Below, in pieces: positions 752 through 40,677 of a DNA stretch of 40,677 nucleotides. Position 1 is the first letter of the stretch, and every line of letters starts with the position of its first letter. The stretch is from a virus. A model generated the notes under the pieces. That model was not told the DNA's origin, made no database searches, and saw nothing but the letters and a program-made list of their open reading frames with translations. The position numbers and the translations under genes are program-made. Where the stretch lies: IMG/VR virus record IMGVR_UViG_3300034062_000739, positions 1 through 40,677 of that record, one strand, 5' to 3'.

Positions 752-766
752 TTTACAGGTTGTAAA
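752..766. promoter_or_regulatory. Early dyad site (TTTACA-GGT-TGTAAA)
   Basis: The symmetry extends to ACTTTACA/TGTAAAGT at 750-768. It lies 20 bases before the ATG at 732. Confidence 0.85.
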
Positions 767-1240: not shown

Positions 1241-1255
1241 TTTACAGGGTGTAAA
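1241..1255. promoter_or_regulatory. Early dyad site (TTTACA-GGG-TGTAAA)
   Basis: It lies 22 bases before the ATG at 1219 and directly abuts the stop codon (1259-1257) of the upstream gene. Confidence 0.85.
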
Positions 1256-1542: not shown

Positions 1543-1557
1543 TTTACAGGCTGTAAA
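1543..1557. promoter_or_regulatory. Early dyad site (TTTACA-GGC-TGTAAA)
   Basis: The symmetry extends to 1541-1559. It lies 23 bases before the ATG at 1520 and about 45-60 bases downstream of the predicted transcription start of the promoter at 1609-1637, so it sits in that transcript's leader. Confidence 0.85.
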
Positions 1558-1608: not shown

Positions 1609-1637
1609 ATCTTATTCGATGATTCAGATCTTGTCAA
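1609..1637 (-). promoter_or_regulatory. Sigma70-type early promoter
   Basis: Minus strand: -35 TTGACA (1637-1632), 17-bp spacer, -10 TAAGAT (1614-1609). It begins TTGACAAGATC, the same 11 bases as the early promoter at 37494-37522. It should drive the early genes from 1520 onward through host RNA polymerase. Confidence 0.8.
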
Positions 1638-1784: not shown

Positions 1785-1799
1785 TTTACAGCCTGTAAA
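1785..1799. promoter_or_regulatory. Early dyad site (TTTACA-GCC-TGTAAA)
   Basis: An intergenic member of the dyad family, about 150 bases upstream of the promoter at 1637. No credible gene starts just downstream, so here it is separate from any ribosome binding site. Confidence 0.8.
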
Positions 1800-1936: not shown

Positions 1937-1964
1937 ACCCCCGCCCTCTTTCGAGAGCGGGGGT
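1937..1964 (-). terminator. Terminator-like hairpin after the first early gene
   Basis: ACCCCCGC pairs with GCGGGGGT, continued by CTC/GAG after one mismatch, with a TTTC loop. It lies about 30 bases after the stop at 1994. The minus-strand sequence after the stem (TGTCGTTTGG) is a weak U tract. Confidence 0.55.
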
Positions 1965-1993: not shown

Positions 1994-2674
1994 TCAGGCC
2001 TTGGCGGGCAGTTTGCTCTTCGCCTTGCCGCCCGTCTTCGGAGTCTCCGCGGGCAGAGTCTCCTCGCAAGTCTTCGCGAGACTTCGGAGAGTCTCCGCCA
2101 TCGCGCGTCGCTGGTCAACGTCCATCCGACCGAGCGCGGCCGTCACAAAGTCGTGCACCGTTGCGAACGGATCCGATGCATCCATGGTAGCGGCCGCTCC
2201 CGCCGCCTTACCTTCCGATGCCGCGGCCCGCGGAGCGGGAGCGTGGGCCTTCACGAACTTCGTGATTCCGCCCGCCTTCGCGACCGCCTTCGTGACCGCC
2301 TTCGGATCCTTCGCGACGTCCAGCCCCGCCTTGCGGATCGACTGCGCGATGCGGCGTGCCTCCCCCTCTGTCTTCACGTCGGGAAGAGCCACGGCGACCA
2401 GTCCCGCGCTCTTCAGTTGCGAAACTCGCGATTCGGTCAGGAACTCCCCGTCGGATCCCGTGAACGTCGAGGCCCACGCCGCGTAGAATCCGGATCCCTT
2501 CCGCTTGCCGCCGCTCTCCCACATTCGGAAGGCGGAGAGGATGAACCGCGCCGCAGCCATCACGCCATCCGCCGACGTTCGCAGGGCCTCAGATGCCTGA
2601 CCCGCGAGGGTACGCATTCCGTTGGTTTCGGCGGCCGTGAGGGCGGGGTTCTCGATCTTGCTCTTCGTTGCCAT
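1994..2674 (-). CDS. Hypothetical early protein with possible helix-turn-helix, 226 aa
   Basis: Start ATG 2674-2672 (MATKSKIENPALT), with ACAGGAGACACTACAA upstream. The open frame extends to 2902 but crosses the promoter and dyad. The protein is rich in Ala, Lys and Arg, with a basic C-terminus. Residues about 79-95, LTESRVSQLKSAGLV, resemble the second half of helix-turn-helix domains such as LTxxxVSQ in plasmid KorA-like regulators. This is suggestive only. It is the first gene of the early region and has its own promoter at 2742-2769. Its GC content is clearly higher than that of the late genes. If the dyads are operators, this is the best encoded candidate to bind them. It could equally be a host-takeover protein. 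Confidence 0.75.
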   Translation of the reverse strand: MATKSKIENPALTAAETNGMRTLAGQASEALRTSADGVMAAARFILSAFRMWESGGKRKGSGFYAAWASTFTGSDGEFLTESRVSQLKSAGLVAVALPDVKTEGEARRIAQSIRKAGLDVAKDPKAVTKAVAKAGGITKFVKAHAPAPRAAASEGKAAGAAATMDASDPFATVHDFVTAALGRMDVDQRRAMAETLRSLAKTCEETLPAETPKTGGKAKSKLPAKA

Positions 2675-2741: not shown

Positions 2742-2769
2742 AAGATACCGCATCGGCCGCGTATGTCAA
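2742..2769 (-). promoter_or_regulatory. Sigma70-type early promoter
   Basis: Minus strand: -35 TTGACA (2769-2764), 16-bp spacer, -10 TATCTT (2747-2742). It lies about 70 bases before the ATG at 2674, the first gene after the presumed genome end. Confidence 0.65.
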
Positions 2770-2827: not shown

Positions 2828-2842
2828 TTTACAACCTGTAAA
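2828..2842. promoter_or_regulatory. Early dyad site (TTTACA-ACC-TGTAAA)
   Basis: Extended CTTTACA/TGTAAAG at 2827-2843. It lies about 60 bases upstream of the promoter at 2769, not between promoter and gene. Confidence 0.8.
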
Positions 2843-2997: not shown

Positions 2998-3378
2998 TCA
3001 GATTTTTTCGCCAAATAGTCGCAACTTCGGGTTCTCCCGGAAGAACGACTTCAGTCCCTGCTCGAAGGTGCAGACTACATGCTCAGGCAATTCAAGGCCA
3101 TAGATGACCCCAATAGCCTCAAGGATCTCATGGAACAGGGTAGACCTCTGTTCCTCCACGGGTTGCTCAGGGTTCACATAGATCTTCGGAGACGGGAAGT
3201 TGATGAACATCCCCAGTGCCTCTTTATCTGGACACTCTGAGAGAACTACGGGGACCTTGATACCTTGGATTAGGACTTTGGTAGGCAAAGGGGACGTTCG
3301 TCGGCCTCGTGGCGAGACGGATTGAACTGGAGTCTTCGAGGACTTCGTCTGGAGTTTCCGCTTCGGCTTTGTACCCAT
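2998..3378 (-). CDS. Zincin-like phage protein (HEIxEA motif), 126 aa
   Basis: Starts at ATG 3378-3376 with GGAG upstream. The basic N-terminus (KPKRKLQTK) is followed by a compact domain. Residues about 80-90 (TLFHEILEAIG) carry an HE-x-x-E motif and a later FEQGL. This matches a widespread phage family related to ImmA/IrrE zinc peptidases in which HExxH is often replaced by HEIxEA. With the third ligand altered, catalysis is uncertain. It is the last gene of the late transcript and overlaps the preceding gene by 155 bases in another frame. Early-region non-coding DNA follows. Confidence 0.75.
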   Translation of the reverse strand: MGTKPKRKLQTKSSKTPVQSVSPRGRRTSPLPTKVLIQGIKVPVVLSECPDKEALGMFINFPSPKIYVNPEQPVEEQRSTLFHEILEAIGVIYGLELPEHVVCTFEQGLKSFFRENPKLRLFGEKI

Positions 3379-3607
3379 GGTCAGCGAGCTCCGATCTGGT
3401 ATCTAGAGGAGGCAGGATTCTAAGAATAAGGGCCAGCAAGAGCCTGCTGATCCCGTGGGTCATCATGGAGTTGATTTCTGGATTGGAACGAAGTTGGAGA
3501 CCGAAGCCAGGAAGCTGGCTATCGGGATCTAGTGTTGCACCGCCATCCTCTTCCCCACTTGGGGGGAACCCGCCACCAGGATCTCCACTACCAGCAAACT
3601 GAGACAT
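3224..3607 (-). CDS. Hypothetical late protein, 127 aa, extensively overlapping the next gene
   Basis: Starts at ATG 3607-3605 in a TGATG overlap with the stop of the 50-residue gene, which implies translational coupling. The N-terminal 45 residues are Gly, Pro and acidic. Residues about 48-65 (MTHGISRLLLALILRIL) are strongly hydrophobic. The last third lies inside the 2998-3378 gene in a different frame, so its sequence is constrained. Function unknown. The out-of-frame nesting recalls Rz/Rz1 spanins, but no lipobox or i-spanin coiled coil is seen. Confidence 0.6.
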   Translation of the reverse strand: MSQFAGSGDPGGGFPPSGEEDGGATLDPDSQLPGFGLQLRSNPEINSMMTHGISRLLLALILRILPPLDTRSELADHGYKAEAETPDEVLEDSSSIRLATRPTNVPFAYQSPNPRYQGPRSSLRVSR

Positions 3608-3759
3608 CAGTTCTTCCCTCCCTTACTCATGATCTTGAATCCCTGAAGGTTGACCAGGTTGTTCATCTTCTTGGGCTTCTTATGGCTGCAACCGCAGTTC
3701 TCCTTGGACTTACCCGGCTTTACGCTTCGGTAGTTGTTCTGTTGATACTGGTTGCTCAT
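3607..3759 (-). CDS. Small basic Cys-containing protein, 50 aa
   Basis: Read directly from the sequence: MSNQYQQNNYRSVKPGKSKE at the N-terminus, then a CGC pair and a Lys-rich run (HKKPKK). ATG 3759-3757 overlaps the stop of the HNH gene (ATGA), and its own TGA overlaps the next ATG (TGATG). GGAG precedes the start at a suitable distance. Unknown function. Strong positive charge suggests nucleic acid or virion binding. Confidence 0.65.
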   Translation of the reverse strand: MSNQYQQNNYRSVKPGKSKENCGCSHKKPKKMNNLVNLQGFKIMSKGGKN

Positions 3760-3983
3760 TGCTTGCTCCGGTTGTACTTCTTGGTCGTGATCTGGAGGTT
3801 CCTGGGGTCGTTGTTGTGTGGGTTTCCGTCCCTGTGGTCCACGTCATGGTTTGTAAGGGCGGCCTTGCCGTGCTTACGGATCATCAGGGCTCGAGCACGG
3901 TTTCGGGAGGCTCGCTGTCGGATCTGCGCTGGACGACCGTGGTACTGCTCGTATTCACGCTTGTAATCGCGCTTTCGTGGCAT
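3756..3983 (-). CDS. HNH endonuclease, 75 aa
   Basis: The C-terminal half carries a compact HNH core: HDVDHRDGNPHNNDPRNLQ, with the DH pair, the central N and the NLQ end typical of phage HNH nucleases. The N-terminus is Arg/Lys-rich. Start ATG 3983-3981 overlaps the preceding stop (TAATG). It lies just after the terminase genes. In several phages an HNH protein near terminase assists DNA packaging cleavage; it could instead be a free-standing homing nuclease. Confidence 0.85.
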   Translation of the reverse strand: MPRKRDYKREYEQYHGRPAQIRQRASRNRARALMIRKHGKAALTNHDVDHRDGNPHNNDPRNLQITTKKYNRSKQ

Positions 3984-4102
3984 TACTTCTTCTTGTCCTT
4001 CTTCTTGATCTTCAAGGCCGAGTTGGCAACGGCCCGAGACGAGGACTCGCTATAGCCCTGCTTCTGGAGCTTCTTGGCGAGATCATGGACCTTCTTGGGC
4101 AT
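3983..4102 (-). CDS. Very small Lys-rich protein, 39 aa
   Basis: Read from the sequence: MPKKVHDLAKKLQKQGYSES at the start and a poly-Lys tail (KIKKKDKKK). ATG 4102-4100 follows AAAAGGAACTCAAG, and its TAA overlaps the ATG of the HNH gene. The pattern KLxKxGYSxSSxxAxANSAL resembles short conserved phage proteins usually left without a function. Strongly basic, probably helical. Confidence 0.7.
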   Translation of the reverse strand: MPKKVHDLAKKLQKQGYSESSSRAVANSALKIKKKDKKK

Positions 4103-4137
4103 CTTGAGTTCCTTTTAGTGGAAGTTAAAGTTCCAGT

Positions 4138-4401
4138 TTACCAAGCCCTGCAAGACCAGTACCGAGCACCTGTCTTGGGACCAGGGTTGTCACAGTTGTG
4201 TCTAGCCCTGAAGCTCTTACGACGAGCAGGGATGTTCTTCTTGATCTTCATGTTGGGGTCTCCAAACCGAACAACCACAACAGAGTTACCGTCCTTGACA
4301 CACACCGCAGACTTCTTCGGTCCACCTGGGGTCTTCCAAGGACGGTTCAACGACTTGCCTTGGCAAGCCGAGGAGATTCGGAGGTTACTGCGGTTGGCCA
4401 T
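4138..4401 (-). CDS. Basic phage protein with HNC...RYWSC motif, 87 aa
   Basis: Start ATG 4401-4399; no good ribosome binding site is visible. It is very basic, and residues about 63-87 hold SFRARHNCDNPGPKT and then ARYWSCRAW, with Cys/His spacing that could bind metal. I have seen similar C-terminal motifs in uncharacterised T7-like and marine phage proteins near the terminase. Function unknown. It is preceded by a structured 200-base gap and followed by the chain of small coupled genes. Confidence 0.7.
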   Translation of the reverse strand: MANRSNLRISSACQGKSLNRPWKTPGGPKKSAVCVKDGNSVVVVRFGDPNMKIKKNIPARRKSFRARHNCDNPGPKTGARYWSCRAW

Positions 4402-13300: not shown

Positions 13301-15287
13301 TGTCGGCAGCCTCACGCTCCTCCTTGATCGCATCATCGACCTTCTTGGCGTACTCGGCCTCCAGCTTTTTACGCTCAACCTCAACCTCCGCCTTCTTGGC
13401 GTCAAACTTCTTGTTGAGATTTGTGTACTCCCTGCGCTTGGCAGCCAAGTTCTTCTTGGCAGCCTTGAGAGCATCCCGAGCCTCCTTATTTGGACCCTTG
13501 GCCACGACTTCTTCAGCCTTGGCTACAGCCCGTTCAGCCTTCTTGACTTCAGCGGACGCCTTGCGGAGATCAGGACCCAAAGCAATCGATTCACCGCGAT
13601 CCTTGGTCTTCCTAGCGTCATCCAACTTGTCCCGAACAGACTTCAGCGCAGCCCTGCGGGTTTCAAGTTCTTTCTTGGCTCGGTCGAGTTCAGCCGCGGC
13701 TCGCTTCTTCAGGTCGATCTCGATGGACCTGGAGGTCTTCTCCTTGGCAGCCCGAACCTCAGCCGCGGCGTCCCGTAGTTCACGAACAAGAGCCGACGTC
13801 TCAGTCCGACGCTCCAGTTCCATCAGGTTCTCAAAGATGTCGGCTTCAGTGGCGAACGTCTCGGTCTCTGGGTCGTCCACGGCGGCCTTGAGCTTCTCAA
13901 AAGCGGCCTTGTACCTTTGGCGAGAAAGAGACAACTTGGTTCGAGCCGCGGAGACCTCTGGACTCCAGGTAGACGATGCCCCTTCCTTGAACTGGGCTCC
14001 AAGTCGAACTTCCCAAGCCTGCATGCCGGGGGGAGGAGCAGCACCAGTCTCAACCGCCGGGGTAAGCCTGGTGACATAACTCCGACGAACCTTGCGACCA
14101 GCCATGATGTCCCAAACCATCAGGACATCTTCGTTCGTTAGGAAATCATTGTCTTCACGGGCAACAGACCGGATCAGTACGCTGCCCATGCCCTTGACAA
14201 ACCCTTCGACATTGTCGGCCTGCTGAAGGGATCGAAGAACAATCTTTCCGTCGTTGAGTTGCTGGATACGAACCTTGCCTCCAGCGAGTTCGATGCTTCG
14301 GACTTCTTCCTGTCCGGGACGAAGACGCGCCTTGGGACCAGCGACGGCCACGTCATCCAAGACTGGAGACGCTGCGTTTGCTGGATCGGTAAGGGTACGG
14401 ACACCGACAATGAAGGCTCCGGCTTCTTCTCGCTTGACTCCGAATCTAGTGGCAACCTGATCCAAGACGTCATCGGCCCCAAACCGTACCGCCAACTCCT
14501 TACCAGCCATGTTGAGCCGCTGCTCATACTTGGTTGCATTCGCCAACAGTTGGTTCTTGATGAGCGACCTTCCAAACATCGTGTTGGCAACACCGCCAAC
14601 AGCTCCGCCAAAGGCAGCCGCCATGTAAAAGTCATCTGCTTCGGCTGTTGGGTCTACAAGCGAGTCAACCGCCATGTAGCCAATGCCGCCCATGGCTCCG
14701 CTTCCGGCCCCATATGCGAACAGTCGAAGACGACTAACAGTTTGAGCCATCCGGCCAGCCTGAGCAAGACGGCTGGAAGCTTGGGCCACCCTAGCAGCGT
14801 TGGCAGTCGAAACAGCAAATCTCCCACCACCAGCCAAGACAGCCGGAAGTGAAGTTCCGGCAGTTGCAAAGGTAAGTGGGGCCAATTCAAGAATTCCAAG
14901 ACCTAGCGCAGCAACAGCTCCTGAGGCCGATTCTGCAACCTTGGCTGAAGCGTTCAATTTGTACAGGACTTCGTTTCTTGTCTGACGAGCCTCGTAAATG
15001 GAATTGGAACTGAGGATGTCGTCGTGGTACTCGAAAGGAATGCTCTCAAGCAGCGAAGGAAGGTCGCTGGCATTCTTAGTCATCCACTCAGGATCTTCGG
15101 GACCTCCATACCAAGAGCGGAATGCGGAGGAGCCGAGGTCGTACAGAATGGACGTCGTTCCAACGGCCTCGAGAAATCCGGGTTGAGACTTGATACGGTC
15201 TTGTTGAGCCAGCCACTCCGCATCTCTACTTGGAGTTGGAGGCTGAGGAACCGCAACGTCAGGAACCTGCGGAATGTCTGTACTCAT
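10338..15287 (-). CDS. Large internal virion protein (T7 gp16-like position), 1649 aa
   Basis: By size and order it corresponds to T7 gp16, the ejected core protein that helps move DNA across the envelope. The N-terminus is Pro-rich and then has Ala/Gly hydrophobic stretches (about 120-240). A long Lys/Glu/Ala coiled coil spans about 470-690 (for example KAEEVVAKGPNKEARDALKA). The rest is mixed. I do not see the lytic transglycosylase motif usual at the gp16 N-terminus, so wall opening may be done by another protein. Start ATG overlaps the gp15-like stop (ATGA). Confidence 0.85.
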   Translation of the reverse strand: MSTDIPQVPDVAVPQPPTPSRDAEWLAQQDRIKSQPGFLEAVGTTSILYDLGSSAFRSWYGGPEDPEWMTKNASDLPSLLESIPFEYHDDILSSNSIYEARQTRNEVLYKLNASAKVAESASGAVAALGLGILELAPLTFATAGTSLPAVLAGGGRFAVSTANAARVAQASSRLAQAGRMAQTVSRLRLFAYGAGSGAMGGIGYMAVDSLVDPTAEADDFYMAAAFGGAVGGVANTMFGRSLIKNQLLANATKYEQRLNMAGKELAVRFGADDVLDQVATRFGVKREEAGAFIVGVRTLTDPANAASPVLDDVAVAGPKARLRPGQEEVRSIELAGGKVRIQQLNDGKIVLRSLQQADNVEGFVKGMGSVLIRSVAREDNDFLTNEDVLMVWDIMAGRKVRRSYVTRLTPAVETGAAPPPGMQAWEVRLGAQFKEGASSTWSPEVSAARTKLSLSRQRYKAAFEKLKAAVDDPETETFATEADIFENLMELERRTETSALVRELRDAAAEVRAAKEKTSRSIEIDLKKRAAAELDRAKKELETRRAALKSVRDKLDDARKTKDRGESIALGPDLRKASAEVKKAERAVAKAEEVVAKGPNKEARDALKAAKKNLAAKRREYTNLNKKFDAKKAEVEVERKKLEAEYAKKVDDAIKEEREAADRLTKSERLAGDVDAEYAIRRRTKPITSEEEERFVTAFLGWLKRTGADGVPEGMFPLFEKIQQVLMRAFASATDPMLGGRAPKPKVDLFFRELFRKNIAAKLAALERQSNSRLFSRLTAIANGKPVGAVDPPAPVTPDSLPSDWSDAPKTDPSILGVRGGWVAGWLNQGLAAMTSSSGAIRWLGNRLFWARISPVDAAGKFAPQRETIREFIQRVRGVLENKVIREFKSAQREFIYGTSDPTAIGTVDRAKMGWAHKKLAQFNQEVHSEIISPGSSTNPAVQRAANAFRNHFKAMRDMAEEVGLPGFVGLEPDGSYFPRFWSWELIDEFTKTEAGTKDLAKMIRASITIPIVSSVDDPAFIAGEAITELGRDALALKVAERLRELARGTNKGAYTDMDEVMLQVLMEEAPAPVRGKGPYMTPRGRRRVPMDISRKVKLNDGREMSLSELVNSDVMQGLGSYNRSVFGAMGEKMLVDEFRDQLVARGKMTADEAADKIKNWANIKEYLESSELRYGLKSTEVEQMIGHLDELMAGLRSEPAPMSFGALFSQYVGRLLKLGYLHNGQGFGLAAVNESARIAGRTSFTSVARQLPIVRELTEAAKAGTIDPARYPLMGLLDQTLGVASDRLRRTVLSVVDARLNRYDTSTRQGWWQSINNWMKSKLDPNLNQATVLMSDVTGLAPVTSATQMLMAASLIQELFDSTKRGVSTYSDAILAQWGVTRAQFDSFVRKLSETARTNSKGRVIDIDTSTWNGTDFGNFLLFIERGTASSIQDPPVRGDFAKSFWTDWGRLLLQFRTFNMKGITNFLMTSTQRADDRVFKEYMLLGSLSLLTQMARKVVFAPTTKSEKEQKKYWEDSFSNKALLGYFMSGPTENYLLMGGIDSVAQFATGETVFSQNVRYSGLGGSPFDISGTPAWSSLNNYAKAIRGPVQALLREDRDFSQQDLNNLTNILWFRKVTPVFQGLNYLQNRVSGALNLPEKSKVKDED

Positions 15288-33511: not shown

Positions 33512-33526
33512 CCTAGGTCTACTTTA
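33511..33526. repeat. ACCTAGGTCT(A)CTTTA block
   Basis: Ten identical bases plus CTTTA, shared with 4509-4523. Both copies are intergenic. Confidence 0.5.
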
Positions 33527-35941
33527 GGAGAAGTAGTATTTACTCTGGAGTACCTGAGTAATATCCATGTCTCCTAGAGGAGGAACCTCTGGTAAACTAG
33601 AGGTGGATGGTAGCATCGACTGCAACTGATTCCTGAAACTTTCCAGAAGATTCTCGGAAAACATTGCAACTGTAGCCTGTCTCAGGCAGTTATACAGGCC
33701 CTGACTTTCTCCTGCCGTCGTCCCGTAGGAGTCATGGACAGTCATCCAGTTCCTGATTCCAAAGTTCTGACCTGAGTTCACGGTAAGACCTAGTAGACCA
33801 CCGATGCCGTCTAGTGAATGGACAACATTGGCAGCGATGCCATTGTGGGTCTTCCTGGCGTCCATCTTACCGTTGCCAATGCGAACCACATGTTGACGGA
33901 TGGTTCTACCAATGGCCGTCTTGATTGGGACCTTGTCGCTCTGTTCGTACTGCATGTCAACTAGGAAGCCTTGGGGTGTCCACCATTTCGGAGTAACCTT
34001 GTTCTCGATGCAGATGTCGGCAACCTCCTGGAACCAATCCATGCCAACACGAGCTGATCGAACCACTCGGTTGATGGCTTCCCAGATGATCTCTGCCAAG
34101 TAATTACACGGTTTATACGTCTCCGTGCCAAAGGGAGACTCACGCTTGTTCTTCCTCGTCTGCTCGTAGAACCATTCTGCCGTGTACTCACGACACGAGA
34201 AGAACGTAGACCCATATGGCAGGGTCATGGTCTGTCTCTTCGTCGTCTTCCTGTCGATGCCGAACACAAGCCACTTTGTGGCGTAATCAGTGAACTCTGG
34301 TCGTGCCTCTGATTTCAGTAGGTCGAGGGCAACGCTAGCAACTTCGCTGTAGATGTCGCTCGGCTTGTCCCGAGGAAGCACGTTAGTAGCCATGCCTGCC
34401 ACAGGATCCTTCAACAACATTGAATAGATTTGCAGGCCCTGCGTCGTAGCATCCTGGGTCACAGGCAGGCGACTTACATAGCCATAGCCATGACGCTTAA
34501 ACGCCACCCACTCACAGCAGGCTGCAAGGAACTTCCATGGCTTGTCTGCCTTCGTCCATTCCAAGCATCCCCTCGCGTCTGATGCCACTGCGCCTATCAT
34601 GGCCTCGTTCTTGATGACCCAAGCCACCCGTTCGTCGTAGGATGATTTGTCCTCACCCCAGCAGTTAGCAACATGAATGGCAAGCCACTCTGCCGCTACC
34701 TTGTCGTTGATTGGCGTACCGTCTCTGAACAGAAGGAGAGCGGAAGCCCACTCGGGACCCTGCGGTTGCAGGTAATACGGAACTGGATATTCGCGTCCTC
34801 GAAAGTCCAACTGACGAGGAAAGTAGAGAGTGTTTCCCTTGAACTTCTCGCAAAGGTACAGGAGTTTAGATACCTGTAGCCTGCGGCTGGTTTGCTTCTC
34901 AATCTCGAAGTAATGCTTGGCTGCTGACTTTCGCCATGCCCGGAGTTTCTCTGGGTCTGACTTCAGGTCATCAGTAAACGGAGGCGCAGGTTCATCAGCG
35001 GTCGGCGGAAGGGAACCCAGGCTCGCACCTGATTCCCACGAACCTATCATGAGTTGCGCCAGCGACTCATTGAGAACGAACGGAACACTCTGAAGAGTGT
35101 TGACCGCCGAGTAGACCGAAGGCATGCCCATGGTCTCAATGGTGCTGACCCAGTTCTTATCCCTGTTCTTCACCAGCGGCTTGGTCCTGAAGACTCCCTT
35201 GGGGTATCCGCCGTTCGATGGGGAGGTCCAAGGAACTGGCTCCTCGACCATTGGCATGTAGACGGGCTTCATGAACTCGCCCATCTTGTGGGCCGTCTTG
35301 ATCCATTGGAGGATGTCATCAGTCGGCCGAACCAAGGTAACGCTACGGCCCATGACGTTTGTCCGGGTGGTGATCTCGATGATCCCGGTAGCCTCCCGCA
35401 TGAGCTCAATGCACACCATGCCTACCTGAATCATGTCCTTTCGATCCCATGCAGGCAGCGAAAGGTTGCCGTCCCTGGCCACCTTCTTGATGAACTTGGC
35501 CTTGGTCGAGTAGGCCGAGCCGCGGTCGATGTTGCGCTTGATGTGCTTCCAAAGGACTGGCTGATCATCCTGGATGAATCGGAACTTGACTTCGTCCTCG
35601 AGCAGCTTGGCTACTTGGTAAGCCGTTGCTGCAATCTTTCTGTTCTGACTGATGCAGTCGATGATGCACTGGCAAGTCAACCCAGCGATGATGTCTGTAG
35701 GCAGCTGCTCGAGGTACGCCATGGCTCGATGGCGGCGACCCGGCTTGTGCTTTGATTCATTCAGCCACCGCTGGATCCGCTTCTTCAGGGCCGGAACAGC
35801 CTTGGAAAGCAAGCGAGCCCCGGCAGAAGTCGTGGACTCCAGGCCGAGGCTCTGCGCCTTGTGGACTTTGGACCAATGGCGGTTCTTGCCTTCCTCCACC
35901 ATTTCCTTGTTGACTTGAGTCTGGGTCTTGGCCTGTTTCAT
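33524..35941 (-). CDS. Single-subunit DNA-directed RNA polymerase (T7 gp1-like), 805 aa
   Basis: Transcribes the middle and late genes. DFRGREYP (379-386) matches the T7 DxRGRxY block. Motif A has QDATTQGLQIYS with D497. Motif B has DRKTTKRQTMTLPYGS with R564, K568 and Y576, the exact spacing of T7 R627, K631 and Y639. HNGIAANVVHSLDG is followed by motif C WMTVHDSYGT with D737. Shorter than T7 gp1 (883 aa). Unlike the other middle genes it has its own early dyad and follows a terminator, so its expression appears separately controlled. Confidence 0.97.
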   Translation of the reverse strand: MKQAKTQTQVNKEMVEEGKNRHWSKVHKAQSLGLESTTSAGARLLSKAVPALKKRIQRWLNESKHKPGRRHRAMAYLEQLPTDIIAGLTCQCIIDCISQNRKIAATAYQVAKLLEDEVKFRFIQDDQPVLWKHIKRNIDRGSAYSTKAKFIKKVARDGNLSLPAWDRKDMIQVGMVCIELMREATGIIEITTRTNVMGRSVTLVRPTDDILQWIKTAHKMGEFMKPVYMPMVEEPVPWTSPSNGGYPKGVFRTKPLVKNRDKNWVSTIETMGMPSVYSAVNTLQSVPFVLNESLAQLMIGSWESGASLGSLPPTADEPAPPFTDDLKSDPEKLRAWRKSAAKHYFEIEKQTSRRLQVSKLLYLCEKFKGNTLYFPRQLDFRGREYPVPYYLQPQGPEWASALLLFRDGTPINDKVAAEWLAIHVANCWGEDKSSYDERVAWVIKNEAMIGAVASDARGCLEWTKADKPWKFLAACCEWVAFKRHGYGYVSRLPVTQDATTQGLQIYSMLLKDPVAGMATNVLPRDKPSDIYSEVASVALDLLKSEARPEFTDYATKWLVFGIDRKTTKRQTMTLPYGSTFFSCREYTAEWFYEQTRKNKRESPFGTETYKPCNYLAEIIWEAINRVVRSARVGMDWFQEVADICIENKVTPKWWTPQGFLVDMQYEQSDKVPIKTAIGRTIRQHVVRIGNGKMDARKTHNGIAANVVHSLDGIGGLLGLTVNSGQNFGIRNWMTVHDSYGTTAGESQGLYNCLRQATVAMFSENLLESFRNQLQSMLPSTSSLPEVPPLGDMDITQVLQSKYYFS

Positions 35942-35969
35942 GTATCTCCCGCGTTAGAGGTACATTGAG

Positions 35970-35984
35970 TTTACAGGCTGTAAA
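35970..35984. promoter_or_regulatory. Early dyad site before RNA polymerase (TTTACA-GGC-TGTAAA)
   Basis: It lies 29 bases before the RNA polymerase ATG and downstream of the terminator. It is the last member of the family in transcription order; I found none before any middle or late gene. Confidence 0.85.
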
Positions 35985-36010
35985 GTAATAGTCAGCGATA
36001 TAAACAAATA

Positions 36011-36043
36011 AAAATCCCCGCCCTGGCTTGCGCCAAGACGGGG
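36011..36043 (-). terminator. Rho-independent terminator before RNA polymerase gene
   Basis: On the minus strand CCCCG-U-CUUGGC pairs with GCCAGG-G-CGGGG (two U-G pairs) around GCAA, followed by ATTTTTATTT. It follows the DUF932-like gene and precedes the RNA polymerase gene, closing the early transcript. Confidence 0.88.
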
Positions 36044-36060
36044 ACTCACAGGAGAAGCTA

Positions 36061-36081
36061 CAGGGTCAGTATAGAACCCTG
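36061..36081. repeat. Inverted repeat around TATACT
   Basis: CAGGGT and ACCCTG flank 9 bases; the minus strand reads TATACT in the centre, a good -10, but no fitting -35 is seen. It lies just after the DUF932-like stop and before the terminator. Confidence 0.4.
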
Positions 36082-36097
36082 AAGCATGAGTGCAGGA

Positions 36098-36889
36098 TCA
36101 AGTGAGAGAGTTAGCGACCTCCTGCGGAGTCTGGCCTTCAATGCCGAACTCCGTGTTGAGGATCTTGTGCAGACGGTTCACGCGGGTTGACCGCTCGAAC
36201 GGAGAGCGACCGCGGTCGTATGAAGTGAAGGCGTTGTACAGCGACCAGACGTTGCGAGGACGGAACTCGTCGTGCTCGGGGGTGCGCCAATGATCCAGCA
36301 CTTGGCCGATGCCAGAGGCCGGGATGATCCCCTGTTGATACGCCTGACACACGACGTGATGCACCTGACGGTCGCTGCCAGCGTCGGTATCCAAGTACCG
36401 CATGAACTGCTCGAAGATGACGTTGGCTCGGTGATTCACCGTCCTGACGCTGTTCTCGACGAATCCGTCAATGCGGGAGAACACGTTGGACGTGTGCTTG
36501 GTCCGCATCAGGTACTCCGCCGACAGGCAGCCATTGGTGCATACATATACCTCTGCACCCATGGCAGTCTTGATGGCGACCTGACGGTTGTACGAGTTGA
36601 TGAGTGCGACCTGCCACCTGAATCCCATGCCAATCGGGAGGTGCAAAGAACGAACGCTGATCTTCGACAGGAACACGTCTTCCTTGTTCGTGGCGAAGTG
36701 CTCCTCTGCCTCGATGGCGTACCCCGAGCGAGTCATGGCGGCTGCCCAGGTATTGAACAGCCTGACGTGCTGCACGGGCTGGTAGGACGCTGTTGCTGGC
36801 GGTACTGGCATGCGACTGATGTCGTCGAGGGAGCAACTCTTACCCCAAACGAACTCGCGACGATTCAAACCGTTGTTGACTGAAACCAT
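36098..36889 (-). CDS. DUF932-like early protein, 263 aa
   Basis: Start ATG 36889-36887 after AAGGAGAGCACACA; the open frame to 36958 crosses the dyad and is rejected. FRWQVALINSYNRQVAIKTA and VYVCTNGCLSAEYLMRTKHT follow the DUF932 pattern (NSYDxS ... VxVCxN ... RKHT), a family common on phages and plasmids with no settled function. It is the last early gene before the terminator. Confidence 0.75.
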   Translation of the reverse strand: MVSVNNGLNRREFVWGKSCSLDDISRMPVPPATASYQPVQHVRLFNTWAAAMTRSGYAIEAEEHFATNKEDVFLSKISVRSLHLPIGMGFRWQVALINSYNRQVAIKTAMGAEVYVCTNGCLSAEYLMRTKHTSNVFSRIDGFVENSVRTVNHRANVIFEQFMRYLDTDAGSDRQVHHVVCQAYQQGIIPASGIGQVLDHWRTPEHDEFRPRNVWSLYNAFTSYDRGRSPFERSTRVNRLHKILNTEFGIEGQTPQEVANSLT

Positions 36890-36911
36890 TGTGTGCTCTC
36901 CTTGTAAGGAC

Positions 36912-36926
36912 TTTACAGGCTGTAAA
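36912..36926. promoter_or_regulatory. Early dyad site (TTTACA-GGC-TGTAAA)
   Basis: The longest symmetric member: 9 matching bases on each side of the 3-bp centre (36909-36929), overlapping the stop codon of the upstream gene. It lies 23 bases before the ATG at 36889. Confidence 0.88.
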
Positions 36927-36927
36927 G

Positions 36928-37395
36928 TCAGCGGGACATTCCAGACAGGGCTTCGCAAACATTGCGAAGAACCCCCTGAATCTTGGTGACCTGAACCACC
37001 AAATCAAGTATCTCACTCTTCATGCCGCGCATGTCTTCCGGCGTGACGGGCCAGCCCTCGTCATTACGGGCCTTGTTGCTGGCTGATTCCAGCGCATCGA
37101 GTCGAACGTTCAGTCCTTGAATGTCTTCCTCCAAGTCATTGACTCGCTCGTCGCTGGCGCAGTCTTGGACGTTCGACTCAACGTCCTCGATATCACTGCG
37201 AAGGTCATGAATATCGCCCTGCGTGACGAGTTCCCCGGTATCGATGTCGTCGAGCTTCCGCTCCAACTCATCGACCCGTCCTGACAACTCGCTGTCGCTG
37301 ATCGCGGAGTCCAGGTCGAGGTGGCTGGTAACGGCCTGCGCCAGTTCCTCGATGGCTGACTCGGGAATGTTCACATCAATCGTCTTCGTGCTCAT
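36928..37395 (-). CDS. Acidic coiled-coil early protein, 155 aa
   Basis: MSTKTIDVNIPESAIEELAQ opens the protein; heptad-like segments follow (ELSGRVDELERKLDDIDTGE; RVNDLEEDIQGLNVRLDALE). Strongly acidic, likely an elongated oligomer or DNA mimic. No family recognised. ATG follows CAGGAGACAGCA. It is the first gene after the promoter at 37494-37522. Confidence 0.75.
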   Translation of the reverse strand: MSTKTIDVNIPESAIEELAQAVTSHLDLDSAISDSELSGRVDELERKLDDIDTGELVTQGDIHDLRSDIEDVESNVQDCASDERVNDLEEDIQGLNVRLDALESASNKARNDEGWPVTPEDMRGMKSEILDLVVQVTKIQGVLRNVCEALSGMSR

Positions 37396-37429
37396 TGCTG
37401 TCTCCTGAAAGTTCTCGATGGTGTTCCGG

Positions 37430-37444
37430 TTTACACCCTGTAAA
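37430..37444. promoter_or_regulatory. Early dyad site (TTTACA-CCC-TGTAAA)
   Basis: It lies 35 bases before the ATG at 37395 and about 40-55 bases downstream of the predicted start of the promoter at 37494-37522, the same arrangement as the dyad at 1543. Confidence 0.85.
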
Positions 37445-37493
37445 CTCTTACAGGGCCGGATCGGGAGCCGAGAGATCTCCCGATGATCTGTGT

Positions 37494-37522
37494 AATATAT
37501 CAGACAGACTGGATCTTGTCAA
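37494..37522 (-). promoter_or_regulatory. Sigma70-type early promoter
   Basis: Minus strand -35 TTGACA (37522-37517), 17-bp spacer, -10 TATATT (37499-37494). It starts TTGACAAGATC like the promoter at 1609-1637. The -35 overlaps the last codons of the methyltransferase gene. Confidence 0.8.
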
Positions 37523-38517
37523 GTCGCTGAACCAGTCCGATCAAGTCGGGCCATGCGTCTGCCAAGCCACTTGATGACTGGGACAGCCATGCTGTTACCA
37601 ATCGCCTTGTAGCGCGCCGAGTCGGACGCTGGCTTGCCGCGGAACGGAACCAATGTCCAATCGTCGGGGAACCCCTGAAGCCTCTCGCACTCACGAGGCG
37701 TCAGCCTGCGGACACCGAGATCGGTCAATACACCGTGTGTATCCCGCTCGCAGATGTCGTAGGTATTGAGGGTGTTGGCCGTGTTGGCTGGAACCCAAGT
37801 CTCGTGGTCATCGACCGATTGAGGACGACGAGACTTGCGGAACACCGTCAGGTTTTGGCATTCGTCGCCTGATGGTCCCCCTGTTCCCTTGTGCCACTTG
37901 CTGCTGACAGTCGCAGCGCAGTCCGCAATGGCTCCACTATTGCCTTGCCTCGACGCCCCGCTCGCAGGAGGATTCCCGAAGCAGCTTTCGGACTCAAACA
38001 ATACTTGGTGGGAGCCTGGTGTTCCAAGACTTCCGACAAGTATGACGCGCCTGCGCCTTTGGGGAATTCCGAACCATTGAGCGTCAAGAATCCTCCATGC
38101 GACTGAATACCCCATGCGAGCCAGCGGCCCGATGAGGGCGGCAAAATCATGCCCTCCACCTGAAGACAGAACTCCAGGGACGTTTTCCCAGACACAGTAT
38201 CTAGGTCTGACACGTTCAACGAGGCCAAGGTATGCATACATAAGCTGCCCCCTGGGATCTTCAAGGCCCAGTCTCCGGCCTGCCGTGGAAAAAGATTGGC
38301 ATGGCGTTCCGCCGATGATGATGTCGATGTCGCCTTCTTGGATCTTCCAGTTCTCATGTTGCGTGAGGTCTCCATAGTTTGGGATGGTGGGGTAGTGATG
38401 AGCCAACACGGCGTTGGCAAACGGCTCGATCTCGCTGAATCCAATGGGATTGAAACCGAGTGGTTTCCAAGCAACCGTGGCCGCTTCAATCCCGCTGCAT
38501 ACGCTCAAGTAGTTCAT
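37519..38517 (-). CDS. DNA (cytosine-5) methyltransferase, 332 aa
   Basis: All main C5-methylase motifs are present: I SVCSGIEAA (5-13), IV GGTPCQSFS with catalytic C73, VI ENVPG (111-115), VIII QRRRRVILVGS (153-163), IX RRLTPRECERLQGFP (270-284) and X AIGNSMAVP (305-313). The target recognition region is about 165-265, so the specificity cannot be read. No restriction enzyme is next to it, which suggests protection of phage DNA against host restriction. The dyad is only 12 bases before its ATG. Confidence 0.96.
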   Translation of the reverse strand: MNYLSVCSGIEAATVAWKPLGFNPIGFSEIEPFANAVLAHHYPTIPNYGDLTQHENWKIQEGDIDIIIGGTPCQSFSTAGRRLGLEDPRGQLMYAYLGLVERVRPRYCVWENVPGVLSSGGGHDFAALIGPLARMGYSVAWRILDAQWFGIPQRRRRVILVGSLGTPGSHQVLFESESCFGNPPASGASRQGNSGAIADCAATVSSKWHKGTGGPSGDECQNLTVFRKSRRPQSVDDHETWVPANTANTLNTYDICERDTHGVLTDLGVRRLTPRECERLQGFPDDWTLVPFRGKPASDSARYKAIGNSMAVPVIKWLGRRMARLDRTGSAT

Positions 38518-38529
38518 GTGGTCCTCGAC

Positions 38530-38544
38530 TTTACAGGTTGTAAA
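38530..38544. promoter_or_regulatory. Early dyad site (TTTACA-GGT-TGTAAA)
   Basis: It lies 12 bases from the methyltransferase ATG, so the GAGGAC ribosome binding site almost touches the dyad. A bound protein or an RNA hairpin here could directly affect translation. Confidence 0.85.
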
Positions 38545-38580
38545 CCGCGTGTTGGGAGAGATGCGCGGCCCCTCTATGAG

Positions 38581-38775
38581 TTAGTCCAGTCTGACGATGT
38601 CGTTCTTCAACGCCACGAGGAACGATGTCTCGTCGTCAGTAAGCCAGTACTCGACAGCCAGTCGATCCACGAGTGGCAGCATGTGCGCGATGACGCCAAG
38701 TTTGCCCTGATCATGGAGTTCGTCTAGCCGTATGATGTAGTCAGACAGGAAGCATGGTTCGGGTGTCAACGTCAT
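38581..38775 (-). CDS. Hypothetical early protein, 64 aa
   Basis: ATG 38775-38773 overlaps the stop of the Gp88-like gene (ATGA); an earlier in-frame GTG at 38787 is less likely. Contains CFLSDYIIRLDELHDQGKLG and VEYWLTDDETSFLVALKND, a small acidic helical protein. It is one of the few early genes without its own dyad, since it is coupled to the gene before it. Confidence 0.7.
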   Translation of the reverse strand: MTLTPEPCFLSDYIIRLDELHDQGKLGVIAHMLPLVDRLAVEYWLTDDETSFLVALKNDIVRLD

Positions 38776-39572
38776 TCCAGGATACACCCCTCACGAACCG
38801 CGAACTGACCCGCAGTATCGGGAGACACGCCCTTGAGTTTGAGCCCGACGATGCAACTGCCGGGATCCAAGAACCGCAGGTCGTGCGCGTCACCGTTGAC
38901 GACAGGGTAACCCATGAACTTCTTGGGGAACCAGCCCGCAAACACCATGGACACACGGCCGCCTGAATCCAGGATGGACTTGCAGTCCGACCAGTTGTAC
39001 CCGCTGTACGAGAACGTCAGATCGTAGTTGGGGAATGGGCGCAACAGTCGAGCCGCGATCTTGGTGTAGTCGTAGTTGCGATACCCAAGATCCGTGGCGT
39101 ACTGAAGCATGCCGGGGTTGTGCGCCTCGTGAACGATGTCGCTGAAGGTGTTCCAGCGTACTGCCATCCGCTTGGCTGTAGCCATGCGCTCAAGCTCGTA
39201 AGCGATGATGCCCATGGCTGCTTCGGGGTGGCGGAACAGGAAGTTAGTGCGAGCGATGCGAGCATCGACAACCGCGGGATACCTAGCGTTGCCTGCGGTG
39301 TGACCGATGCAGGCTCGTCGGCACTCGTCCGTACAACTGGGACAGACATGGAAGTCGGACATGTCGGCTGGTGCGAGCGAGAGACTGACGGTTTGCCAGC
39401 CCTTGGCCTGACCCTTGGCCAACTTGGAGTTGGCTGATGGAGGCGAAAGGTACGAGCCGCCGCTGATCCTGCGCCACGCTGCTCGAGCCTCGTCTGCCGG
39501 GAGTCGTCTGTCCCAGGCACCCTTGATTCGAGCGTAGGCCGATGGCTTTACAACTTGTAAAGAGGTAGTCAC
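38772..39572 (-). CDS. Gp88-like phage protein, 266 aa
   Basis: FHVCPSCTDECRRACIGHTA places four cysteines at 77, 80, 84 and 88. AVVDARIARTNFLFRHPEAA, then WNTFSDIVHE and YDYTK ... YDLTFSYSG follow the order seen in the phage Gene product 88 family, whose function is unknown; the Cys cluster suggests a metal or Fe-S centre. GTG start at 39572-39570 with AGGAGA 7 bases away. The dyad lies inside the coding region at codons 5-9. Confidence 0.8.
   Translation of the reverse strand: MTTSLQVVKPSAYARIKGAWDRRLPADEARAAWRRISGGSYLSPPSANSKLAKGQAKGWQTVSLSLAPADMSDFHVCPSCTDECRRACIGHTAGNARYPAVVDARIARTNFLFRHPEAAMGIIAYELERMATAKRMAVRWNTFSDIVHEAHNPGMLQYATDLGYRNYDYTKIAARLLRPFPNYDLTFSYSGYNWSDCKSILDSGGRVSMVFAGWFPKKFMGYPVVNGDAHDLRFLDPGSCIVGLKLKGVSPDTAGQFAVREGCILE
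39547..39561. promoter_or_regulatory. Early dyad site inside the Gp88-like coding start (TTTACA-ACT-TGTAAA)
   Basis: Extended to 39546-39562. Here the dyad encodes residues 5-9 (LQVVK) rather than lying upstream. If the site acts in regulation it would act as a roadblock or translational element. Confidence 0.8.
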
Positions 39573-39593
39573 TTGTAGTTCTCCTAGATGGTT

Positions 39594-39612
39594 TGCAACC
39601 TACGAGGTTGCA
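39594..39612. repeat. Second dyad type (TGCAACCT-ACG-AGGTTGCA)
   Basis: Perfect 8-bp arms around 3 bases, the same geometry as the TTTACA dyads but a different sequence. It lies between the promoter candidate at 39620-39648 and the Gp88-like ribosome binding site. Confidence 0.65.
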
Positions 39613-39619
39613 TGGACTT

Positions 39620-39648
39620 ATGATCTCATGGTTTGGGCTTATTGTCAA
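39620..39648 (-). promoter_or_regulatory. Possible sigma70 promoter before Gp88-like gene
   Basis: Minus strand -35 TTGACA (39648-39643), 17-bp spacer, -10 GATCAT (39625-39620), a weak -10. It overlaps the end of the 39-aa membrane protein gene. Confidence 0.4.
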
Positions 39649-39745
39649 ATCGCAGATAAACCCATAACAAGTAGAGGGAGATACTGATGAACACCACCCA
39701 GTATCCGAGTGTCAGGAATTGAAACACGGGGTGAATATTCCTCAA
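39626..39745 (-). CDS. Tiny single-TM early protein, 39 aa
   Basis: Read from the sequence: TTG at 39745-39743 overlaps the stop of the preceding gene (TTGA), with GGGGAGG just before. The product MRNIHPVFQFLTLGYWVVFI continues with a Leu/Tyr/Trp-rich segment and ends RFDNKPKP. Residues about 8-31 are one membrane span. The same TTGA coupling is used by the gp13-like and large terminase genes here. Role unknown. Confidence 0.6.
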   Translation of the reverse strand: MRNIHPVFQFLTLGYWVVFISISLYLLWVYLRFDNKPKP

Positions 39746-40065
39746 TCGTCCTCCCCGAATGTGTCCTCCCAGTCGCGTGGGGACAGACCGGTCTTGATGA
39801 ACTCACGGTCTTCCTTGGAAACCGATGGCATGGCGTTCTGAACCAACTCACCTTCGTGCCACTTCTCGATGCCCTGAAGCAAGACCGAGATCTCATGCCA
39901 CGCCGTCGTGTACGGTCGTCCAGCCTTGTCCTCGCCGTGAACTGCGGCCTGGAGTTCGGGTGGCTGGACGTCGCTGTTGAGCTGCAACCGAAGCCGCAGT
40001 CCTTGGGGAAGAAGACGCTCGACGTTACGCTTGCGGTTGGTCCAATAGAAATCGCTAGTAGTCAT
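39742..40065 (-). CDS. Hypothetical early protein, 107 aa
   Basis: Start ATG 40065-40063 (MTTSDFYWTNRKRNVERLLP) after AAGGAGAGCACA; the frame upstream to 40104 crosses the dyad. Contains HEISVLLQGIEKWHEGELVQ and ends in an acidic GEDD. No known family. The DFYWTNRKRN start could bind nucleic acid. Coupled to the tiny membrane gene downstream. Confidence 0.75.
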   Translation of the reverse strand: MTTSDFYWTNRKRNVERLLPQGLRLRLQLNSDVQPPELQAAVHGEDKAGRPYTTAWHEISVLLQGIEKWHEGELVQNAMPSVSKEDREFIKTGLSPRDWEDTFGEDD

Positions 40066-40084
40066 TGTGCTCTCCTTGTGTTGC

Positions 40085-40099
40085 TTTACAACCTGTAAA
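40085..40099. promoter_or_regulatory. Early dyad site (TTTACA-ACC-TGTAAA)
   Basis: It lies 20 bases before the ATG at 40065; the upstream gene's stop codon (40103-40101) lies one base beyond the dyad. Confidence 0.85.
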
Positions 40100-40100
40100 C

Positions 40101-40601
40101 TCAAACCTGCGCCGTGGACTGACTTTCAGCCCACTCGATGAACGCTGGCATCTCTGATTCAGTAACCCCTTCGTCCTTGGCACACGATTCAAGGACGAAC
40201 CTGTAGTTGGAATCCTCGTAGATTCTCATGTAGTTCTTGGCTCTGTCAAGGGACGAACGCCACCGCATCATGCGGTATCTGTTCTCTTCGGCCTTGCGAT
40301 ACGACACGCCGATCCATGGATCCTTGTACCACAGATCCCATGCGGCAAGGAACAACTCATTCATCGGCCCAGGGATGCACAGGAGACGGCTCAGGCCACG
40401 ACGGTCAACACCGAGTGACACGAGGGCGTCATACATGGCCATATTGGCATCACAGAAGTCATGGCTGTGGCATACGAGATTGTCCTTCTCGGTTCGGTTG
40501 CGGTAGATGACAAGGCGGTATTCCCTTTCGGTCATGTATCTACGCAAGATCTTTCCGAAGCGAACGGCAAGACGACGAGGTGTGATCTCTTTCCATGTCA
40601 T
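40101..40601 (-). CDS. Hypothetical early protein with CHSHDFCDAN motif, 166 aa
   Basis: ATG 40601-40599 after AAGGAGAACACCC; an in-frame ATG at 40637 lies before the ribosome binding site and is rejected. The segment LVCHSHDFCDANMAMYDALV with two Cys, two His and acidic residues recurs in unannotated phage proteins I recall. RLLCIPGPMNELFLAAWDLW follows. A metal-binding role is possible. The gene spans the assembly overlap; its 5' end is repeated at 1-80. Confidence 0.75.
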   Translation of the reverse strand: MTWKEITPRRLAVRFGKILRRYMTEREYRLVIYRNRTEKDNLVCHSHDFCDANMAMYDALVSLGVDRRGLSRLLCIPGPMNELFLAAWDLWYKDPWIGVSYRKAEENRYRMMRWRSSLDRAKNYMRIYEDSNYRFVLESCAKDEGVTESEMPAFIEWAESQSTAQV

Positions 40602-40677
40602 GGGTGTTCTCCTTATGAGGTAAAGCCCCGGCTCCACGAATGGAACCGGGGCATGGTGCTGCGGTTTACACGGTGTA
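40522..40677. repeat. Terminal overlap of circular assembly (copy 2)
   Basis: Matches 1-156 except at 40560 versus 39. It includes the gene start, the hairpin at 40625-40652 and the first 14 bases of the dyad at 40664. Confidence 0.9.

Follow-up and report, generated by a model that had tools for sequence, protein, structure and literature searches.

T7-like phages are the textbook case of one-way early transcription without a repressor. In the temperate Cluster A mycobacteriophages (L5, Bxb1 and TipsytheTRex), asymmetric 13-bp stoperators oriented with transcription are bound by repressor monomers, and both the stoperator consensus and the repressor, which in L5 and TipsytheTRex combines an N-terminal helix-turn-helix with a stoperator domain, differ between related heteroimmune phages; a block to elongation has been proposed (PMC6550527, PMC9283540). 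The Cluster O phage Corndog carries tens of copies of a 17-bp dyad, TGTTCGG-NNN-CCGAACA, which have no orientation, become denser towards the right genome end and in many cases lie away from gene starts; they have no known function or binder (PMC4351075). In Cluster K phages, the asymmetric 13-mer called SAS (GGGATAGGAGCCC) lies 3–7 bp from the start codon and has a proposed translational role, and the ESAS are imperfect 17-bp inverted repeats whose half-sites vary between phages (PMC3203893). The T7-like phage LUZ100 has a MarR/integrase lysogeny module with proposed repression of its RNA polymerase gene (PMC10134795). Here we describe twelve copies of the dyad TTTACA-N3-TGTAAA in the viral record IMGVR_UViG_3300034062_000739 (positions 1 to 40,677; "the window" denotes this entire 40,677-nt stretch). 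From comparative sequence evidence, these dyads are quite likely operator sites in DNA for a single phage-encoded regulator, which is most probably the protein made from the first early gene and would shut off the early genes. Our searches of the open-access literature turned up no account of arrays of this kind in T7-like phages.

The record is a circular or terminally redundant 40.5-kb T7-like phage, with bases 1–156 repeated as 40522–40677 (a 156-bp end overlap). Since the ends overlap, the dyads at coordinates 144–2842 and 35970–40099 fall within one contiguous early block, which lies on the minus strand, runs from ~2998, where the late genes end, through the 1/40677 joint as far as the RNA polymerase gene at 35941, and occupies 18.7% of the circle. 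A first-pass annotation of this DNA had placed twelve dyads here and judged them rare by chance. All twelve are exact matches, the window holds no further full copies, and dinucleotide shuffles give 0.00 copies; allowing up to two mismatches adds a single weak site at 10286. All twelve centres have G or C as their middle base, as had been described, but the RSY proposed for the full centre fits only nine (the exceptions being CGG, GGG and CCC), so its outer two bases do not stand. The bases flanking the arms are G or C at 24 of 24 positions, which together with the middle base extends the element to S-TTTACA-NSN-TGTAAA-S. The centre has no preferred strand.

The annotated confinement of the dyads to the early genes and RNA polymerase is borne out, with 12 of 12 inside the early block (p ~2e-9). 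Ten are wholly intergenic, against ~20% of the early block that is intergenic (p ~6e-6); of the remaining two, one overlaps the stop codon of open reading frame (ORF) 145–732 and the other lies within the first codons of a GP88-like gene. Most sites fall between 35 nt upstream of a gene and just inside it, eight of them 13–35 nt upstream of a start codon (Table 1). Where a recognisable sigma70-like promoter is present, the dyad usually starts ~50–58 nt past the -10 box, and the remaining dyads sit at internal gene borders with no recognisable promoter. The first early gene (1994–2674) has its own promoter and terminator and is flanked by dyads 2828 and 1785, each upstream of a promoter and not in the leader. 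Across seven phages, ~27 promoters share one layout, in which the promoter is followed by a dyad that starts 30–66 nt beyond the -10 box, then by a Shine-Dalgarno and the gene. Many early sigma70-like promoters also have, within ~10 nt and before the dyad, a short stem-loop at the 5′ end of the transcript (e.g. TCGAGGAACGTCCTCGA); such transcript-start stem-loops occur in the window at 1609–1570, 2741–2700, 37494–37450 and 39620–39580, and in G001, G002, G009, G021 and G042.

Relatives were gathered with an RNA polymerase query and then by capsid- and terminase-based searches, and their dyads were found by repeat searching. In the same places, about a dozen uncultured relatives have dyad families of their own, likewise in multiple copies but with different arms and spacing. 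The two longest contigs from the polymerase query, L125 (polymerase 77% identical) and L127 (80%), contain zero copies of TTTACA-N3-TGTAAA; L125/G001 has 16 good sites of GTNTACC-N2-GGTANAC, and L127 has 11 sites of TTTACC-N2-GGTAAA. Other families are GTTTAC-N4-GTAAAC (18 sites in G009, 11 in G042), GTCTAG-N3-CTAGAC (10 in G013), GTCTCA-N4-TGAGAC (7 in G021), TCTGTAG-N2-CTACAGA (7 in G049), TCTGGGACGTCCCAGA (8 in G043) and GTCCAA-N3-TTGGAC (3 in the partial contig G018). L277 has its own type, TCTTGTCATGACAAGA, and its dyads at 3350–4200 lie within a repetitive GTTGTTGCG-rich stretch. The best count in random controls for these arrays was 1–2 copies. In a cross matrix, the operator types are absent from each other's genomes, save for partial overlap among closely similar GTxTAC variants, and there are at least nine types inside one phage clade, near-identical sister phages included. 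In the window, G002, G001, G009, G021, G049 and G043, the RNA polymerase start is preceded by a dyad at a distance of 13–91 nt, and L270 has an RNA polymerase dyad as well.

The array-bearing phages fall into one supported set of the terminase tree (95/86). The members of that set without a detected array are short contigs, and their coordinates suggest that they stop short of the first dyad or near it. The array is not a generic property of T7-like phages: two pelagiphages, Mycobacterium phage jiawei, LUZ100 and about a dozen further related contigs lack it. A scan of the collection (literal dyad, then Shine-Dalgarno) returned many single chance matches and no array, and was uninformative. 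The first-pass annotation had counted a lack of conservation at the early gene starts of relatives as evidence against a network. The literal sequence is indeed not conserved; the positions are, with lineage-specific arms.

The sister phages L275 and L276 provide the clearest example. The DNA around their early blocks is mostly 80–97% identical, whereas the stretch containing the first early gene is 31–48% identical with no BLASTP match, i.e. without homology. At matching positions, the dyads read TCTGTAGCACTACAGA in one phage and TCTGGGACGTCCCAGA in the other, and two of the swapped dyads fall within genes for orthologous proteins, where one phage has SVALQ and its sister SGTSQ. Judged from these alignments, the pattern is that of an immunity region plus dispersed operators, in which dyad positions are conserved while their sequence switches as a set. 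This bears on the alternative of cassette-boundary elements raised by the first-pass annotation, under which the dyads would be boundary or recombination elements aiding early-gene exchange. The gene content between dyads does vary among relatives, with p87, p137, p195 and p166 patchy. Yet the whole set changes between the sister phages at homologous positions with the flanks kept, also inside coding sequences and before RNA polymerase, and since spreading boundary elements are not expected to be replaced in place, we regard this alternative as highly improbable. The dyads adjoin host-type promoters, and a host protein (a regulator or a nucleoid factor) that the phage exploits could likewise account for them. 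The many operator types within one clade, differing even between near-identical sisters and changing with a phage gene, leave a host protein with very little probability.

Operator type and first early gene also go together across the clade. A first early gene encoding ~194–256 amino acids adjoins dyads in the window, G001, G002, G004, L261, G009, G042, G013, G018, G049 and G043, and the cut contig L262 holds the start of such a gene next to dyads. The product carries an R[VF]SQ motif in eight phages (the window, L261, L125, L128, L262, L127, L270 and G009), and the operator half-site is (G/S)T-N-TAC in all eight. Four array phages (G013, G018, L275 and L276) have another first early gene and a different half-site, with none of the four matching (G/S)T-N-TAC.

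The dyads might instead act at the RNA level, as small mRNA hairpins by ribosome-binding sites, the hairpins serving as targets of a phage protein or of RNase; mRNA processing had been suggested in the first-pass annotation. The proximity of eight window sites to start codons fits such a role, and the dyad sites can fold as 6–9 bp hairpins, although the hairpin energies are as weak as -1.7 kcal/mol at three window sites. In G009, nine GTTTACAGGAGTAAAC dyads (34483–37801) have the Shine-Dalgarno AGGA as their centre, so that operator and ribosome-binding site coincide; this would allow a translational role, but tight packing may explain the arrangement. The annotation had proposed telling DNA from RNA by arm conservation versus covariation. 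Arms are invariant inside most genomes, and at the degenerate arm position of G001 the two arms are equal in 5 of 17 sites against 4.97 expected, i.e. they vary independently and pair at chance level. Variation without pairing covariation points to DNA sites rather than RNA hairpins. Two window sites, moreover, precede a promoter or follow a terminator, and a dyad upstream of a promoter cannot act in that promoter's leader; the centre's lack of strand preference also speaks against RNA. Control at the RNA level thus seems unlikely to us.

If the dyads are DNA operators, the switch could work as follows. Upon infection, host RNA polymerase would start at a few sigma70-like promoters and transcribe the early block, and the product of 1994–2674 would be made first and bind the dyads as a symmetric dimer or multimer. 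The bound regulator would stop host polymerase soon after promoter escape, at dyads ~25–60 bp past the predicted start, and would also stop it at internal gene borders. The early genes would thereby be turned off and the phage RNA polymerase gene metered, as probably would the regulator's own gene. We infer the identity of the binder, repression, the elongation block and superinfection immunity alike from sequence. A circuit in which one protein governs the early block including RNA polymerase, as the first-pass annotation had proposed, is favoured by the comparative data, namely fixed positions, a set-wise switch in sequence and behaviour as DNA. An early array flanking one gene would also fit a regulator that activates instead of represses, or sites that organise or partition phage DNA in a ParB-like manner. 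Dyads 30–66 nt downstream of the -10 box would be unusual for an activator, and for partition neither the HTH_ParB search nor hhalign found a ParB domain, and none of the early genes had a ParA-family match; we give these two possibilities scant credence.

A seven-sequence alignment of the candidate regulator yields a confident all-helical core model, with a predicted local distance difference test score (pLDDT) of 91 and a predicted template modelling score (pTM) of 0.84. Foldseek against the PDB found nothing significant for this core, so the protein may represent a new DNA-binding family; a search of viral structures was likewise without a significant match. Among cultured phages and plasmids we found no meaningful relatives of the protein, and among viral contigs just the few array phages. 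The IncP plasmid RK2 uses about a dozen TTTA-containing KorB operators (TTTAGC-S-GCTAAA) as a global circuit, and the first-pass annotation had drawn a comparison to it. The KorB operator is a different one (PMC11790492), the window arms being TTTACA with an N3 centre. By eye, SRVSQ...ARxL in the candidate likewise suggested to us a ParB/KorB identity. The search with HTH_ParB (PF17762) was empty, hhalign against R751 KorB gave a probability of 0.25%, and KorB (8qa9), the second Foldseek match, was insignificant (E value 5.6). The resemblance to KorB is therefore one of analogy only.

Several observations weigh against an operator array governed by the first early gene. The regulator–operator association is drawn from related phages that are not phylogenetically independent, and in G021, which has an array, no such first early gene was found in the (perhaps incomplete) contig. 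The 226-residue candidate has no significant match to Pfam, PHROGs or the PDB by sequence or fold, and the helix-turn-helix that it may contain is read from motif and model alone. G044 has a weaker TTGTCG-N5 set of only six scattered sites. G001 has a few exact dyads after the early block, at 13750, 16539, 22478 and 29397, apparently inside middle or late genes, so not every member of the clade confines its dyads strictly to the early genes.

Set beside the described systems, the dyads would work most like Cluster A stoperators. Both have many sites in short early intergenic spaces or at early promoters, and in both the site consensus varies between relatives together with the repressor gene, here a candidate, as the cross matrix and L275/L276 indicate; a halt to elongating polymerase is proposed for both. 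They fail the asymmetry and repressor-fold features: sites in the window's clade are symmetric and 15–18 bp long, perfect inverted repeats in the window and without strand preference, and they occur in T7-like phages without a detected integrase, whose candidate protein has no match to the Cluster A repressor. In appearance the array most resembles the Corndog dyads, which by the published description also have invariant arms, a variable 3-bp centre and many copies; sequence and virus type differ, and no sister-phage swap is known to us from that description (PMC4351075). As with the SAS/ESAS of Cluster K, repeats stand at the starts of a subset of genes, which in Cluster K are non-structural (PMC3203893), but unlike SAS the window dyads have another sequence, are symmetric and lie mostly 13–35 nt from the start. 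LUZ100 and the window are both T7-like, and in both the RNA polymerase gene is proposed to be repressed; the window differs in having no integrase found and a multi-gene array.

The features of the window are collected in Table 1. A single-subunit RNA polymerase, T7-type terminase, SSB (single-stranded DNA-binding protein), helicase-primase and scaffold place the phage among the T7-like phages (Autographiviridae). A search for tyrosine integrase (PF00589) in eight array-bearing records found nothing, searches of Rfam and for tRNAs gave no matches, and no relatives of the RNA polymerase were found in bacterial or archaeal genomes. The GP88-like gene (38772–39572) has counterparts in the stoperator-bearing Cluster A mycobacteriophages and in pelagiphages. 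Just before the candidate regulator, 2998–3378 encodes a small conserved protein with homologues in relatives, whose HE-type motif (FHEILEAI) looks to the eye like that of a metallopeptidase; the protein has no Pfam match.

Table 1. Dyads, predicted transcription signals and early-region genes of the window
Feature	Coordinates	Strand	Remarks
Dyad TTTACACGGTGTAAA	144..158		ORF 145-732 has its TAA stop codon here; crosses the joint of the record
Dyad	752..766		ORF 145-732 starts 20 nt downstream
Dyad	1241..1255		ORF 806-1219 starts 22 nt downstream
Dyad	1543..1557		23 nt upstream of ORF 1257-1520; 51 nt past -10 box of 1637 promoter
Dyad	1785..1799		between terminator 3′ of candidate regulator gene and 1637 promoter
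Dyad	2828..2842		upstream of candidate regulator's promoter; late/early border
Dyad	35970..35984		RNA polymerase gene starts 29 nt downstream
Dyad	36912..36926		DUF932 gene starts 23 nt downstream
Dyad	37430..37444		35 nt upstream of coiled-coil gene; 49 nt past -10 box of 37522 promoter
Dyad	38530..38544		C5-methyltransferase gene starts 13 nt downstream
Dyad	39547..39561		in first codons of GP88-like gene; downstream of 39648 promoter
Dyad	40085..40099		ORF 39742-40065 starts 20 nt downstream
First early gene, candidate dyad-binding repressor	1994..2674	-	226 aa; motif LTESRVSQLKSAG; no Pfam or PHROG family
Sigma70-like promoter of candidate regulator	2742..2769	-	TTGACA-16-TATCTT
Sigma70-like promoter	1609..1637	-	TTGACA-17-TAAGAT
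Sigma70-like promoter	37494..37522	-	TTGACA-17-TATATT; TG before -10
Weaker sigma70-like promoter	39620..39648	-	TTGACA-17-GATCAT
Terminator-like hairpin	1937..1958	-	3′ of candidate regulator gene
Strong terminator-like hairpin	36012..36047	-	between DUF932 gene and RNA polymerase dyad
RNA polymerase, single-subunit (T7-type)	33524..35941	-	805 aa
DUF932 early gene	36098..36889	-	
C5-cytosine DNA methyltransferase, early gene	37519..38517	-	
GP88-like early gene	38772..39572	-	PF17338

Because the operators switch along with the first early gene from one lineage to the next, as they do in heteroimmune phages, the circuit would plausibly silence a second infecting phage of the same type. That sister phages differ in operator type suggests that selection has favoured escape from a resident phage's silencing, i.e. 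superinfection immunity, and the system as a whole suggests a fast-evolving on/off, immunity-like switch in this T7-like group. We put forward only tentatively the stronger proposal that these are integrase-less T7-like phages with true superinfection immunity, in which a new repressor family, its members being the first early proteins made, would act on symmetric "stoperators" across the early block, and repressor and operators would be replaced together at such a pace that even near-identical sister phages would belong to different immunity groups. If the switch operates as proposed, immunity-type regulation would enter the T7-like family, with an operator at almost every early gene and before RNA polymerase, and the clade would offer a clean system for the joint change in specificity of a repressor and all its operators. 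The roughly nine distinct operator types and their candidate proteins form a resource for such work, and they suggest a possible approach to the unexplained dyads of Corndog-type phages.

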